From contig JAQVIJ010000008.1 in the NCBI GenBank assembly GCA_028695735.1, positions 1-38,524 on the forward strand: a stretch of DNA of 38,524 bases, in the 5' to 3' direction. The translations under genes were made by a program, and so were the position numbers. Below the pieces are notes generated by a model, which ran no database searches, was not told the DNA's origin, and was given only the letters and a program-made list of their open reading frames with translations. Source of the stretch: Deltaproteobacteria bacterium (lineage in GTDB: Bacteria > Desulfobacterota > Dissulfuribacteria > Dissulfuribacterales > DYLC01). Positions 19,548 through 24,288 of the stretch are shown here, one piece after another; the stretch's first letter is position 1, and each line of letters starts with the position of its first letter.

Positions 19548-20246
19548 TCAAAGCTTTGCAGAGCCTTCGGCGATTGCCTCCAGCATGGGAATGTCCTGTA
19601 TGGTCACTTCATTCCCGTTTGTGATGAGCACACCGTTGGCCTGAAAACGGCTGAAGATGCGGGACAAGGTCTCAGGAATGGTGCCGAGCAGGGAGGCGAG
19701 TTGCCCGCGTGTGATGTCCAGCTCAATTTTTTGGCTGTTTTTTTGTTTTTCGACGGCAAACAACAGATACCTGGCAAGACGGCTCGGCACATCCTTGAGG
19801 GACAGGTCTTCAATGAGGTGGGCGAAGATGCGGAGCCTTAGGGAGAGCATGGAGAGCATTTTGAGGGTCAGGCCCGGATTTTTTTGTATCAGCTCGATGA
19901 AGTCGGCCCTTCCGATAAAGACGGCCTCCATGGCCTCCATGGCCTCTGCCGATGCAGGAAAGCTTCTGCCCTCGAAGACCGCTACCTCGCCGAACGGCTC
20001 GCCTGGGCCGAAGACATGGAGGATCTGCTCCTTGCCTTCAGAAGAGAGTTTGAATATCTTCACCCTGCCTTTTGACACCATGTAAAAGCCGTTTCCTGCA
20101 TCGCCTTCACAGAACACGCTCTGGCCCCGCTGATACCTGCGAAGCTGTGCGACAGCCGCGATCTTGTCCAGCATCTCTGGGCTTTGGCCTGTAAATAAGG
20201 GGAATTGTGCAAGTTTGGCTGCCAGTTCGGTATTCATCTTGCGCAT
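19548..20246 (-). CDS. Crp/Fnr-family transcriptional regulator
   Basis: A 232-residue regulator. The start at 20246 overlaps the ychF stop as TAATG; a start at 20237 is also possible. The longer open frame upstream is the ychF gene in another frame. The N-terminal cyclic-nucleotide-type barrel (about 14-125) has RGQSVFCEGDAGNGFYMVSK and GPGEPFGEVAVFEGRSFPA, the usual effector-binding block. The C-terminal winged helix has ITRGQLASLLGTIPETLSRI as recognition helix region. No N-terminal cysteine cluster for Fe-S is present, so this is not a canonical Fnr oxygen sensor. The ligand is unknown. It may form the end of the ychF operon. Confidence 0.9.
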   Translation of the reverse strand: MRKMNTELAAKLAQFPLFTGQSPEMLDKIAAVAQLRRYQRGQSVFCEGDAGNGFYMVSKGRVKIFKLSSEGKEQILHVFGPGEPFGEVAVFEGRSFPASAEAMEAMEAVFIGRADFIELIQKNPGLTLKMLSMLSLRLRIFAHLIEDLSLKDVPSRLARYLLFAVEKQKNSQKIELDITRGQLASLLGTIPETLSRIFSRFQANGVLITNGNEVTIQDIPMLEAIAEGSAKL

Positions 20247-21295
20247 TAAACGCTGAAGCGGAAGTTGATGACATCCCCGTCCTTCACTATATATTCCTTG
20301 CCTTCCAGCCTGACCTTGCCCGCCTTTTGAGCCGCATGATATGAGCCTGCGGCCATCAGGTCGTCGTAGGCCACCACCTCTGCCCGAATAAAGCCCCGTT
20401 CTATATCGGAGTGTATGGCGCCGGCGGCCTTGGGTGCGGGTGTATTCTGTGGAATATCCCATGCCCGTACCTCGTCTTCGCCCACTGTAAAGAAGGAAAT
20501 GAGGCCCAGGAGTTCGTATGAGCTGCGGATGAGCCTTTGAGTGGCTGGTTCCAGCATGTTCAGCTCCTCTCGGAATATCTGGGCGTCTTCCGGTGCGAGT
20601 TGAGCGATCTCCATTTCCAGCCTGCCCTTGATCTCTATAAGGGGCACGCCAGGCGGCGGCTTTATGGGGGTTATGCCCAGTTCCTTGTCGTCACTGGTAT
20701 TCAGAAGCAGGATGCATGGTTTGGCCGTGAGAAAGGCATAGCCCTTGAGCAGTGAAGAGTCGGCTATCTCGGGCAACGTGCGCAGGGCCTGATTGTTGTT
20801 TAAGGCCTGTTGCGCCTGTCTGAGCAGCTCCAGTTCCTTTGGATCGCCTTTTTTGCCTTTGGTGACCTCCTTTTCCAGGCGTTCCAGCCTTTTTTCCACT
20901 GTGATGAGGTCGGTCAGGGCCATATCCGCCTCAAAGGCATTCATATCCTCTTGCGGAGTGGCCGGCAGGCCTGGCAGATCGAAGTTTCTCACCACCAGGA
21001 CCATGGCATCCATGGGCCGCAGCATCTTGAGCAGTTCGTCAGTGGAGGCATCCTTGGTATCGGCCTTGGGGATGCCGCCGCCCACATCTACATATTGTAC
21101 CTGGGCATGAGTGGTTTTTTTGGGGTTGTACATGGCGGAGAGACGGTCGAGACGCTCGTCCGGCACTCGAATGACCGCCAGATTCGGGTCCTTTTTAGCG
21201 CCCTGAAAGCCTGAAAGTTCTGCGCTGCTGCCCGTGATGGCATTGAAGATAGTGGTTTTGCCGCTTCCAGGCATGCCGATTATTCCGATTTTCAT
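20246..21295 (-). CDS. ychF: Redox-regulated ATPase YchF (Obg-like)
   Basis: A 349-residue YchF/OLA1-type P-loop protein. It begins MKIGIIGMPGSGKTTIFNAI with the Walker A, then VQYVDVGGGIPKA (switch II region). The coiled-coil insert lies at about 130-175, and the specificity motif is LLNTSD, the usual NxxD/E replacement linked to ATP preference. The C-terminal TGS-like domain is seen as GFIRAEVVAYDDLMAAGSYH and IVKDGDVINFRFSV. The protein hydrolyses ATP and associates with ribosomes. AAGGA lies 7 nt before the ATG. It follows the DsrE-like gene by 38 bp and overlaps the regulator gene by one base. Confidence 0.92.
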   Translation of the reverse strand: MKIGIIGMPGSGKTTIFNAITGSSAELSGFQGAKKDPNLAVIRVPDERLDRLSAMYNPKKTTHAQVQYVDVGGGIPKADTKDASTDELLKMLRPMDAMVLVVRNFDLPGLPATPQEDMNAFEADMALTDLITVEKRLERLEKEVTKGKKGDPKELELLRQAQQALNNNQALRTLPEIADSSLLKGYAFLTAKPCILLLNTSDDKELGITPIKPPPGVPLIEIKGRLEMEIAQLAPEDAQIFREELNMLEPATQRLIRSSYELLGLISFFTVGEDEVRAWDIPQNTPAPKAAGAIHSDIERGFIRAEVVAYDDLMAAGSYHAAQKAGKVRLEGKEYIVKDGDVINFRFSV

Positions 21296-21333: not shown

Positions 21334-21651
21334 CTAAAAACTAATGACCTTATCGCTCTCTTTAATAAGTTGGTATAATTCTTTCTGAGTGCCTCGTTTT
21401 TGGTATCCTTCCTTCACGCCGTGAAGGTCCATCAATTTACCTCATGCTAACAATTGGCCTTCTGAAAGGGTAAAGGTTTTTGCAAGTGTTTTTAATGGGA
21501 ATTGCGTTGAGTCCAGCCCTTCGTACTGGACTGATGGCCCATTAAGAAAAATAGTGACTTCCGCCATGTCTTCCAGCATTATGTTAGCTAATCTAAAGGC
21601 ATTCCATATCACTTCAGGAATGTTACTGGATACAATAAATAAGATTTTCAT
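21334..21651 (-). CDS. DsrE-like protein read through in-frame TGA (candidate selenoprotein)
   Basis: The frame runs 69 codons from ATG at 21651 (MKILFIVSSNIPEVIWNAFR...), meets TGA at 21444-21442, and continues in the same frame for 35 codons to TAG at 21336. The full product would be 105 residues, the usual size of small DsrE-like sulfur-relay proteins. The part after TGA (GKLMDLHGVKEG..., ending ELYQLIKESDKVISF) fits the family C-terminus. Relatives have a Cys-Gly motif after the LLA strand; here the codon after LLA is TGA and Gly follows. A hairpin with SECIS-like geometry lies 14 nt downstream (21411-21427). DsrE-like selenoproteins are a known rare class. AGGAG precedes the start, which lies 3 bp after the mog stop. 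The gene is more AT-rich than its neighbours. The alternative is a pseudogene with a nonsense mutation. Confidence 0.72.
21411..21427 (-). promoter_or_regulatory. Candidate bacterial SECIS hairpin
   Basis: On the - strand CCTTCAC-GGC-GTGAAGG forms a perfect 7-bp stem with a three-base apical loop starting GG. The loop lies 21 nt after the in-frame TGA. Known bacterial SECIS elements lie directly downstream of the UGA, with 16-37 nt to the apical loop and a G among its first two bases; both hold here. Confidence 0.65.
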
Positions 21652-21654
21652 TCC

Positions 21655-22200
21655 CTATCTCCTTTCATTTTGTATTGCGCCAGCTTCATTTATTTTTGTT
21701 ACATGGCATGGAGTGGCATCTCCTTTCAGCTTGTCCATGGCGTGGCGTATTATGGGTGTAATCACTCGCATAGCGGATGCTACCGCCTTTGGGCTGCCCG
21801 GCATGTTGATGATGAGGGTGCTGCCCCGTATGCCTGCCAGCCCACGGGAGAGCATGGCCATGGGTGTCTCCTTCAACCCCTCCATGCGAATGGCCTCGGC
21901 TATGCCAGGGACCTCCTTTGTTACCACGCGTTTTGTGGCCTCCGGCGTTACGTCCCGTGGGTAGAGGCCGGTGCCGCCTGTGGTGAGTATGAGATCCAAG
22001 CCGTCTGCACACCAGAGTAGCAGGGTCTCCACAATCATGTCCTCCTCATCCGGCACAATGGCGGTCTTTTCCGCTGTAAGGCCGCCGGCGAGGAGCAGCT
22101 CGACTATAGTTCTGCCGCTCAAGTCCTCCCGCTCACCCCGAAAGGAGCTGTCGCTTATGGTCAATACGCCGATTCTATATGGATTTTTCGAGCTTTCCAT
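21655..22200 (-). CDS. mog: Molybdopterin adenylyltransferase-type protein (MogA/MoaB family)
   Basis: A 181-residue MoCF-fold protein. It begins with YRIGVLTISDSSFRGEREDL. The central motif LILTTGGTGLYPRDVTPEAT (about 91-110) is the pterin-binding loop. MAMLSRGLAGIRGSTLIINM and PGSPKAV follow. The TTGGTG...RDVTPEAT form is more like MogA than MoaB. It activates molybdopterin by adenylation for metal insertion. A mobA gene lies at 27657. The start lies 3 bp after the EF-G-like gene stop, and the stop 3 bp before the DsrE-like start, so the three are probably one transcript. Confidence 0.9.
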   Translation of the reverse strand: MESSKNPYRIGVLTISDSSFRGEREDLSGRTIVELLLAGGLTAEKTAIVPDEEDMIVETLLLWCADGLDLILTTGGTGLYPRDVTPEATKRVVTKEVPGIAEAIRMEGLKETPMAMLSRGLAGIRGSTLIINMPGSPKAVASAMRVITPIIRHAMDKLKGDATPCHVTKINEAGAIQNERR

Positions 22201-22203
22201 AGG

Positions 22204-24288
22204 TTATTTTTCGTGCTTCGCCCTCTCTTCATTGGCCTTTGCCACAATTTTGTCTATGAGGTAGGCGGGTACCTCTTCATAGTGGGCGGGTTCCATGGTG
22301 AAGCTGCCTCTGCCCGCTGTCAGGGCGTTCAGGTCCAGAAGATATCGCTGTACCTCTGCGAGCGGTGCAATGGCCGTGACCTTCTGGCCTTCCGGACATG
22401 GGTCCATGCCCATGACCTTGCCCCTGCGGGAGTTGATGTCTCCTATCACATCGCCCACATAGTCATCCGGTACGGTGATGGTCATGCGTACCATGGGCTC
22501 CAGCAGAGTGGGCTTGGCGTCCAGTACCCCTTTTTTGAAGCATTGAATGGCGGCGATCTTGAAGGCCATTTCAGAGGAGTCCACCTCGTGGGACTTGCCG
22601 TCGTAAAACCTGACCTTCACATCCACTACAGGGAAACCTGCCAGGGGGCCTGACATCAGGGCCTCATGTATGCCTTTTTCAACGGCGGGCACGAAGTTAC
22701 GCGGTACATTCATGCCCACCAGGGCCTCTTCGAACTCGAAGCCGGAGCCCCTGGGCAGGGATGAGACATCGAAGTGCACCTCTGCAAACTGGCCTGCGCC
22801 GCCGGTCTGTTTTTTGTGGCGATAGACTATGCCTTTTTGCGAGGCCTTTATGGTTTCCTTGTATGGAATGGAGGGCAGGGAGATGTCCACGTTCACCCCG
22901 TATTTTCTGGCCATCTTTTCCAGTGTGACGTCCAGATGCAGTTGCCCGTTGCATGAAAGCAGGAGCTCTCCTGTGTTGGCGTCCCTTTGAATGGCTATAT
23001 GTGGGTCCTCTTCCTGCATCTTGGCCAGGACCTGAGAGATTTTCTCTTCGTCGCCTCTTGTTTTAGGCTTCAAGGCAAAGGTCAGGCCGGGCTGCATTGG
23101 TTTCTTGCAGCTATATAATATGGGGTTGGCTGAATCGCAGAGCGTGTCGCCTGTGGAGGTCTCTTTCAGTTTGGGGATGGCCACGATCTCGCCAGGAACC
23201 GCTTCAGCCGGAATGGTCTTTTGTTCCTTGCCTTCCATGGCCAGAAGTGTTCCGACCCGTTCTTCCACGCCTTTGGTGGAGTTGTAGATGTTGGTGTCGT
23301 GTTTCAGGGTGCCGGAAAGGATGCGCGCTATGGACAGACGGCCTGCAAATGGATCGATGGTGGTCTTTATGACGATTGCCGAGAAGGGCTCGGTAGCGAG
23401 TGGTTTGCGGGTTACGGTCTTTTGAGTCTTGGGATTTATGCCCTCGAGAGGCTGCGTGTCTTCTGGCGCAGGAAGTAGCGGCGTGATGGAGTTCAGTAGC
23501 AGTGTGGCGCAGGCCGGATGTATCGCCGCCCCGCAGTAAACAGGATTGAGACTGCCTTTTGCGATGCCCTTTTTCAGGCCTGTGGTGATCTCTTCAAAGG
23601 AAAGCTCGTTTCCTTCCAGAAATTTTTCCAGCAAGACGTCATCTGATTCAGCCGCATACTCTATCATGGAGTTTTTGAGGTTGCTGATGGTGTCCTGTAA
23701 ATCCCCTGGAATTTCGCACTCCTTGGCCTGTGGTGTGAAATCGTTGGGCAGGCGGAATGCGGAGCCGGTGAGTATGTCGATTATACCGATAAGCCGGTTC
23801 TTGTCGATAATTGGATAAAAAAACGGAATGAGTTTGATTTTTAGAAGGGTCTGTAATGTATCTATGCAGTTTTGAAAATTGACATTTTCCTTGTCCAGTT
23901 TGTTGATAAAGAAGACGGCCGGTTTGTTGATTGTTTTGGCGAGAGGCCATAATTTTTCCAGTTGAGGCTTTTTGGGGTCTGTCGCATCCACCACCATGAG
24001 CAGTGTGTCGAATGCCGGTATGATGTCTTTTGTCTCCGCCAGGAAATTGTCCTCACCAGGGGTATCGGCTATGCAGATGGTTGTCTTGTTCCAGTTCAGA
24101 CGATGAAAGGCGGTATTGGTGGAGATGTGTCTTTTGACCTCTTCCGGTTCGAAATCCAGGTGTGAGGAACCATCGTCCACCTTGCCCAGACGCGAGGTGG
24201 CCTTTGCAACAAACAACATGGCCTCGGCCAGCGAGGTTTTTCCGCTGGCGTTGTTGCCGACGATGGTGAGATTTCTGACTGTGTCCAT
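22204..24288 (-). CDS. EF-G-like translational GTPase (non-canonical paralogue)
   Basis: A 694-residue five-domain protein with EF-G architecture. The G1 loop is GNNASGKTSLAEAML rather than the GHxDxGKTT of true EF-G. G3 is DTPGEDNF and G4 is NKLD. Domains III-V show GQLHLDVTLEKMARKYGVNV, KQTGGAGQFAEV and the C-terminal GDVIGDINSRRGKVMGMD with LDLNALTAGRGSFTMEPAHY. These features place it in the EF-G-like (EF-G2) group, whose exact role is unsettled and whose members lack one or more EF-G functions. GGAGG lies 6 nt before the ATG. It is the first gene of a run: EF-G-like, mog, DsrE-like, ychF, regulator. It diverges from the gene at 24465. Confidence 0.92.
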   Translation of the reverse strand: MDTVRNLTIVGNNASGKTSLAEAMLFVAKATSRLGKVDDGSSHLDFEPEEVKRHISTNTAFHRLNWNKTTICIADTPGEDNFLAETKDIIPAFDTLLMVVDATDPKKPQLEKLWPLAKTINKPAVFFINKLDKENVNFQNCIDTLQTLLKIKLIPFFYPIIDKNRLIGIIDILTGSAFRLPNDFTPQAKECEIPGDLQDTISNLKNSMIEYAAESDDVLLEKFLEGNELSFEEITTGLKKGIAKGSLNPVYCGAAIHPACATLLLNSITPLLPAPEDTQPLEGINPKTQKTVTRKPLATEPFSAIVIKTTIDPFAGRLSIARILSGTLKHDTNIYNSTKGVEERVGTLLAMEGKEQKTIPAEAVPGEIVAIPKLKETSTGDTLCDSANPILYSCKKPMQPGLTFALKPKTRGDEEKISQVLAKMQEEDPHIAIQRDANTGELLLSCNGQLHLDVTLEKMARKYGVNVDISLPSIPYKETIKASQKGIVYRHKKQTGGAGQFAEVHFDVSSLPRGSGFEFEEALVGMNVPRNFVPAVEKGIHEALMSGPLAGFPVVDVKVRFYDGKSHEVDSSEMAFKIAAIQCFKKGVLDAKPTLLEPMVRMTITVPDDYVGDVIGDINSRRGKVMGMDPCPEGQKVTAIAPLAEVQRYLLDLNALTAGRGSFTMEPAHYEEVPAYLIDKIVAKANEERAKHEK

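Follow-up and report, generated by a model that had tools for sequence, protein, structure and literature searches.

On its minus strand, the window (the whole 38,524-nucleotide stretch of DNA that we analysed, from a Deltaproteobacteria bacterium) encodes at positions 21334–21651 a 105-residue selenoprotein with selenocysteine (Sec) predicted at codon 70. We hold this reading with high confidence; it was reached by computation, from the frame, its conservation, covariation in the SECIS hairpin, the Sec machinery and the fold; the actual insertion of Sec, the chemistry and the partner are inferred. The gene and its recoded codon are:

21334..21651, minus strand: DsrE-like selenoprotein gene, ATG at 21651, 105 codons including the predicted Sec, TAG at 21336–21334
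21442..21444, minus strand: in-frame TGA, codon 70, predicted selenocysteine; TGA in 15/15 relatives

In the minus-strand frame from the ATG at 21651, 35 codons follow the TGA (21444–21442) before the TAG. The frame, the TGA position, the length of the extension and the TAG all coincide with those given in an earlier, sequence-only reading of this DNA, and a table 11 open reading frame call reproduced the 69-aa product (21442–21651) that it had expected of a simple gene caller. The open frame is by itself little proof, because a 35-codon open stretch after a stop has a probability of ~0.19, or about one in five, by chance. The protein has no Cys anywhere, and its motif at codon 70 reads UGKL.

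A search of genome contigs yielded 15 relatives (60–82% identical, nearly all from Desulfobacterota), among them one in the complete genome of Desulfosarcina alkanivorans. Every one of the 15 has TGA at the matching codon and ends at codon 106; in L007 a contig edge falls within the gene, and the copy begins there. Mean pS/pN across 18 sequences was 0.80/0.19 before the TGA (pN/pS ~0.23) and 0.75/0.15 after it (pN/pS ~0.20), with pN exceeding pS (ratio >1) in the two wrong frames after the TGA. Since synonymous change dominates in the part after the TGA and not in its other frames, this part is translated and selected, and the purifying selection on it spans at least 17 species. The proposal that the gene continues through its TGA is thus borne out in close relatives, with 15 of them collinear past this codon and pN/pS at ~0.20. 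In one genome (G101; L057 and L078) the reading frame breaks just ahead of the TGA, so that the gene occupies two frames, and the SECIS is still intact; a frameshift, pseudogene formation or a sequencing error may be the cause. A partial copy (L084, 2997–3152) carries CGA in place of the relatives' TGA and retains an intact SECIS-like hairpin; gene decay or a fault in the assembly may explain it.

Directly downstream of the TGA lies a hairpin, a feature absent from the earlier description:

21411..21427, minus strand: upper hairpin of the SECIS, CCTTCAC-GGC-GTGAAGG, with a stem of 7 bp and a 3-nt loop that opens with GG

The loop Gs are at 21420 and 21419, and the distance from the TGA is 14 nt to the stem and 21 nt to the loop. 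The bacterial SECIS (bSECIS) model describes an upper stem of 4–16 bp, a loop of 3–9 nt with G in the first two positions, a UGA-to-loop distance of 16–37 nt and a minimum free energy (MFE) of −7.5 or lower (PMC13188914), and the window hairpin lies within all of these bounds (7 bp, GGC, 21 nt, MFE −8.7 kcal/mol). Taken alone it is moderately stable (z −1.77, with 12 of 200 shuffles as good). Across 34 distinct sequences, 97.5% of hairpin cells pair and 6 of the 7 pairs show two-sided changes, pair 19–33 being seen as C-G, A-U, U-A and G-C. Double-change cells numbered 20, compared with 3.6 in shuffles (0/500 as high) and 0–5 with slid partners. Viral contigs, scanned for exact DNA matches to a SECIS-region consensus from relatives, gave none.

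The organism's own genome (2.22 Mb, 97% complete) encodes SelA, full-length SelB, SelD and one canonical tRNA-Sec with a UCA anticodon (73.2 bits), so that selA, selB, selC and selD, for which the sequence-only reading had proposed a search, were all found. The tRNA-Sec family search also gave many weak matches to other tRNAs, and the UCA gene alone was counted. SelD of this genome (L034, 1501–2421) contains an in-frame TGA and is therefore probably itself a selenoprotein. Among sampled genomes of the phylum, selA was present in all 64 with a TGA-bearing match to our gene, compared with 355/395 overall (hypergeometric 0.0006). With selA in 90% of the sample, this co-occurrence is weak evidence. 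One genome with a Cys-copy match (G288) is absent from the selA list.

The genome also holds a second SelB-like gene, selB* (L038, 4470–6455, minus strand; 661 aa, with weak SelB winged-helix matches), adjoined by selC*, a tRNA-Sec-like tRNA-Cys with a GCA anticodon and U73 (G000:C2:678479-678567); TorD-like and molybdopterin oxidoreductase genes come after the pair. Such selC*/selB* pairs are known from delta-proteobacteria and have been proposed to insert Cys, some of them with an opal anticodon (PMC7609411).

Three readings of codon 70 other than Sec can be weighed against these data. Decoding of UGA as Cys by the selC* tRNA-Cys, delivered by selB*, draws on the presence of that pair in this very genome, U73 included, and on the Cys insertion and opal anticodons described for such pairs. 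We consider it very unlikely: the GCA anticodon reads UGC and UGU but does not read UGA, for which the canonical tRNA-Sec has the matching UCA, and the hairpin is that of the ordinary bSECIS model. Sec is the best reading of codon 70 because of this anticodon mismatch. The gene might instead stop at the TGA, its 69-aa product being real or the gene a pseudogene, with the later frame a relict, and the chance figure of 0.19 for the extension would be in keeping with this. However, the C-terminal part is conserved under purifying selection in at least 17 species and holds helix 89–98 and strand 101–104 of the modelled fold, and the TGA stays at one codon throughout, together with a covarying hairpin; conservation and pN/pS rule truncation out, and we assign it practically no probability. 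Genome-wide reassignment of UGA was also rejected. Of 21 long frames in the window, 11 end in TGA, which also terminates the gene itself in 18 of 42 clade members; since the organism uses this codon as an ordinary stop, no such reassignment is needed. The selenoprotein reading is thus supported by TGA conservation, the SECIS, the Sec machinery and the Cys counterparts described below. In the mechanism that we propose, SelB bound to the hairpin just past the UGA would deliver Sec-tRNA(Sec) (UCA), so that codon 70 would be read as selenocysteine and not as a stop.

DsrE-like genes with Sec are frequent in the phylum. In a phylum-wide sample of 395 genomes, 74 had matches to it and 64 had at least one TGA-bearing match, a frequency at odds with the earlier remark that DsrE-like selenoproteins are rare. 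When the fetched loci were translated, TGA, TGC or TGT fell in one column. A tree of 80 proteins placed the window protein in a clade of 40 members (support 99/99) with the motif FTLSEGxLLAUGK[L/C]xDLHG, in which 39 carry TGA and one (L053) carries TGC; a second Sec group has the motif GDFYVUGVCMKSHG, and the Cys relatives have ACGTCLKLR. The Sec/Cys label changes 6 times on the tree, compared with 12 when shuffled. A Cys therefore aligns with the TGA, as the sequence-only reading had proposed, in the TGC clade member, in the CGTC relatives and in YchN. At residue 73, the 42 Sec clade members have Leu (22), Cys (19) or Ser (1); the resolving Cys of UxxC, three residues past Sec, is absent from the window protein (UGKL). 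The sole TGC member (L053, 1501–1818, minus strand) has a shorter possible hairpin after this codon, CTTCC-GAGGCCT-GGAAG, perhaps the remnant of a lost SECIS. At two other loci (L077 and L082) we observed a further group of Sec-containing DsrE-like proteins with the motif GUKKALKMHG, lacking a second Cys and adjoining a Cys-containing DsrE-like gene.

The match of the window protein to PF02635 is full-length (E 2.7e-4) and scores 21.5 bits, below the gathering cut-off of 22.7; a family match with E ≤ 0.01 was obtained for 18 of 19 diverse relatives. An AlphaFold2 model from a 16-row alignment had a pLDDT of 89.4 and a pTM of 0.84. In the model, Sec70 closes strand 66–70, a central strand, and confidence is low just after it (mean pLDDT 54 over residues 71–80). 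The best structural neighbour was YchN (1jx7; Z 15.7, rmsd 2.1, 105 residues aligned, 21% identity), with others in a Sulfolobus DsrE-like protein (Z 14.7), TusD (2d1p_A; 12.9) and DsrE (2hy5_A; 12.8). Top matches in the structure search were of DsrE/YchN/TusD type at Z 12.4–15.7, and the next unrelated entry scored 6.8. As modelled, the window protein clearly has the DsrE/YchN fold. A sequence search of the PDB with a narrow profile (A1) found nothing; a broader one (A3) found E. coli YchN (1jx7, E 1.2e-10), in which the first Cys of LCKTC fell in the TGA column.

Earlier reports describe DsrE-like selenoproteins from the Sargasso Sea and from D. vulgaris, and UxxC is the motif under which the family is catalogued (PMC1088965, PMC1794560, PMC9312934, PMC13188914). 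The catalogued proteins (PF02635; WP_014524487.1) belong to the same Pfam family, with Sec first in a CxxC motif and a bacterial SECIS directly downstream, but the window protein differs from their UxxC in having UGKL and no other Cys. In our tree its clade (99/99) is separate from the Sec clade with the motif UGVC. The latter clade presumably includes the catalogued D. vulgaris protein. E. coli YchN, the best fold match, whose first Cys of LCKTC aligns with Sec70, is a Cys protein that lacks Sec and has a second Cys, whereas the window protein has a predicted Sec and no Cys. DsrE of DsrEFH (2hy5) and TusD of TusBCD (2d1p) have the fold in common with it (Z 12.8–12.9) but act in three-subunit complexes, with DsrF/H or TusB/C, whereas the window gene is alone; a PF02635 search of its own genome found no DsrEFH-like cluster. 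YedF/FdhU (TIGR03527), a SirA–DsrE fusion whose DsrE domain has a CGxC motif and which is tied to selenium metabolism, is a two-domain Cys protein, in contrast to the single DsrE domain with predicted Sec found here; the genome holds one YedF-like copy (L110). We found no description of the UGKL branch or of its spread in Desulfobacterota in the literature searched. Judged by its sequence, the window protein is a one-selenol variant of the known but barely studied DsrE-like selenoproteins, on a branch widespread in Desulfobacterota.

Three genes on the same strand surround it:

21655..22200, minus strand: MogA/MoaB-type molybdopterin-binding protein (PF00994), whose stop codon lies 3 nt ahead of the selenoprotein ATG
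20246..21295, minus strand: YchF-like GTPase (PF06071), next gene downstream after a 38 nt gap
22204..24288, minus strand: EF-G-like translation GTPase, upstream of the mogA-like gene

The mogA-like gene is a probable operon partner, and it is not conserved beside the gene in relatives. With no neighbour common to more than 4 loci, the neighbourhood is mostly uninformative on function, and any partner is a guess because the neighbourhood is not conserved. Three relatives (L014, L015 and L049) have a tandem-duplicated DsrC-domain protein just upstream of the selenoprotein gene (in L014 with two DsrC domains in one chain) and a convergent selB ~0.8 kb downstream; a rhodanese–rubrerythrin gene is near it in L014 and L015. 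In L013 the gene lies upstream of TorD-like and Mo-oxidoreductase genes, and in L043 it is followed by a TorD-like gene and a shorter matching ORF. An ArsR-type regulator is upstream in four relatives (L041, L045, L053 and L054).

In DsrE and TusD, Cys78 carries sulfane sulfur, and DsrE donates it to DsrC (PMC3397948). By analogy with these remote homologues (14–21% identity), from which the sulfur-transfer chemistry is transferred, there is about an even chance that the window protein is a sulfur carrier. Sec70 would stand where YchN-type DsrE proteins have their active-site Cys, would be the sole chalcogen nucleophile, would most likely hold sulfane sulfur as a perselenide (Se–S), or possibly selenium, and would pass this cargo to a partner, for example DsrC, a TusA-like or a rhodanese protein. 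Because the resolving Cys of UxxC is replaced by Leu, the acceptor or a reductant, rather than an internal Se–S bond, would have to bring about release. The DsrC, rhodanese and Mo-oxidoreductase genes near a few relatives point towards sulfur or selenium carriage, and a one-selenol carrier whose bond is resolved by the acceptor fits best. A more specific version, which we put forward tentatively, is that bacteria with a sulfate and sulfur metabolism would have in this clade a dedicated chalcogen carrier with a single selenol, which has lost the resolving Cys and whose Sec70 perselenide (Se–S or Se–Se) would feed DsrC or Mo enzymes.

The selenoprotein may instead be a redox enzyme reducing peroxides, polysulfides or disulfides, a possibility we regard as real though on the unlikely side. 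Most catalogued selenoproteins are thiol-redox enzymes (PMC1088965 Table 3, PMC13188914), many DsrE-like Sec relatives have UxxC, and the upstream ArsR-type regulators in four relatives would agree with such a role. However, a second Cys is lacking from the window protein, 22 of the 42 Sec clade members have Leu at residue 73, the active-site Cys of the DsrE superfamily is a known acceptor and donor of sulfur, and some neighbours are sulfur-trafficking genes. A part in the maturation of molybdenum enzymes, to which the protein would supply sulfur or selenium, seems improbable. The start of the gene 3 nt past the mogA-like gene, the TorD-like and Mo-oxidoreductase genes that follow it in L013, the TorD-like gene and shorter ORF in L043, and the link of YedF, a SirA–DsrE protein, to formate dehydrogenase biogenesis (PMC5322559) all speak for it, but neither neighbour recurs throughout the clade.

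Gene callers end this protein just before its predicted active-site residue, and for that reason a common Desulfobacterota selenoprotein has probably been overlooked by standard annotation. Cultured relatives exist in Desulfosarcina alkanivorans and Desulfopila aestuarii. If the protein is a one-selenol carrier, these bacteria would have a sulfur-relay chemistry with selenium as the carrier atom, and selenium would move sulfur in their sulfur-energy metabolism.
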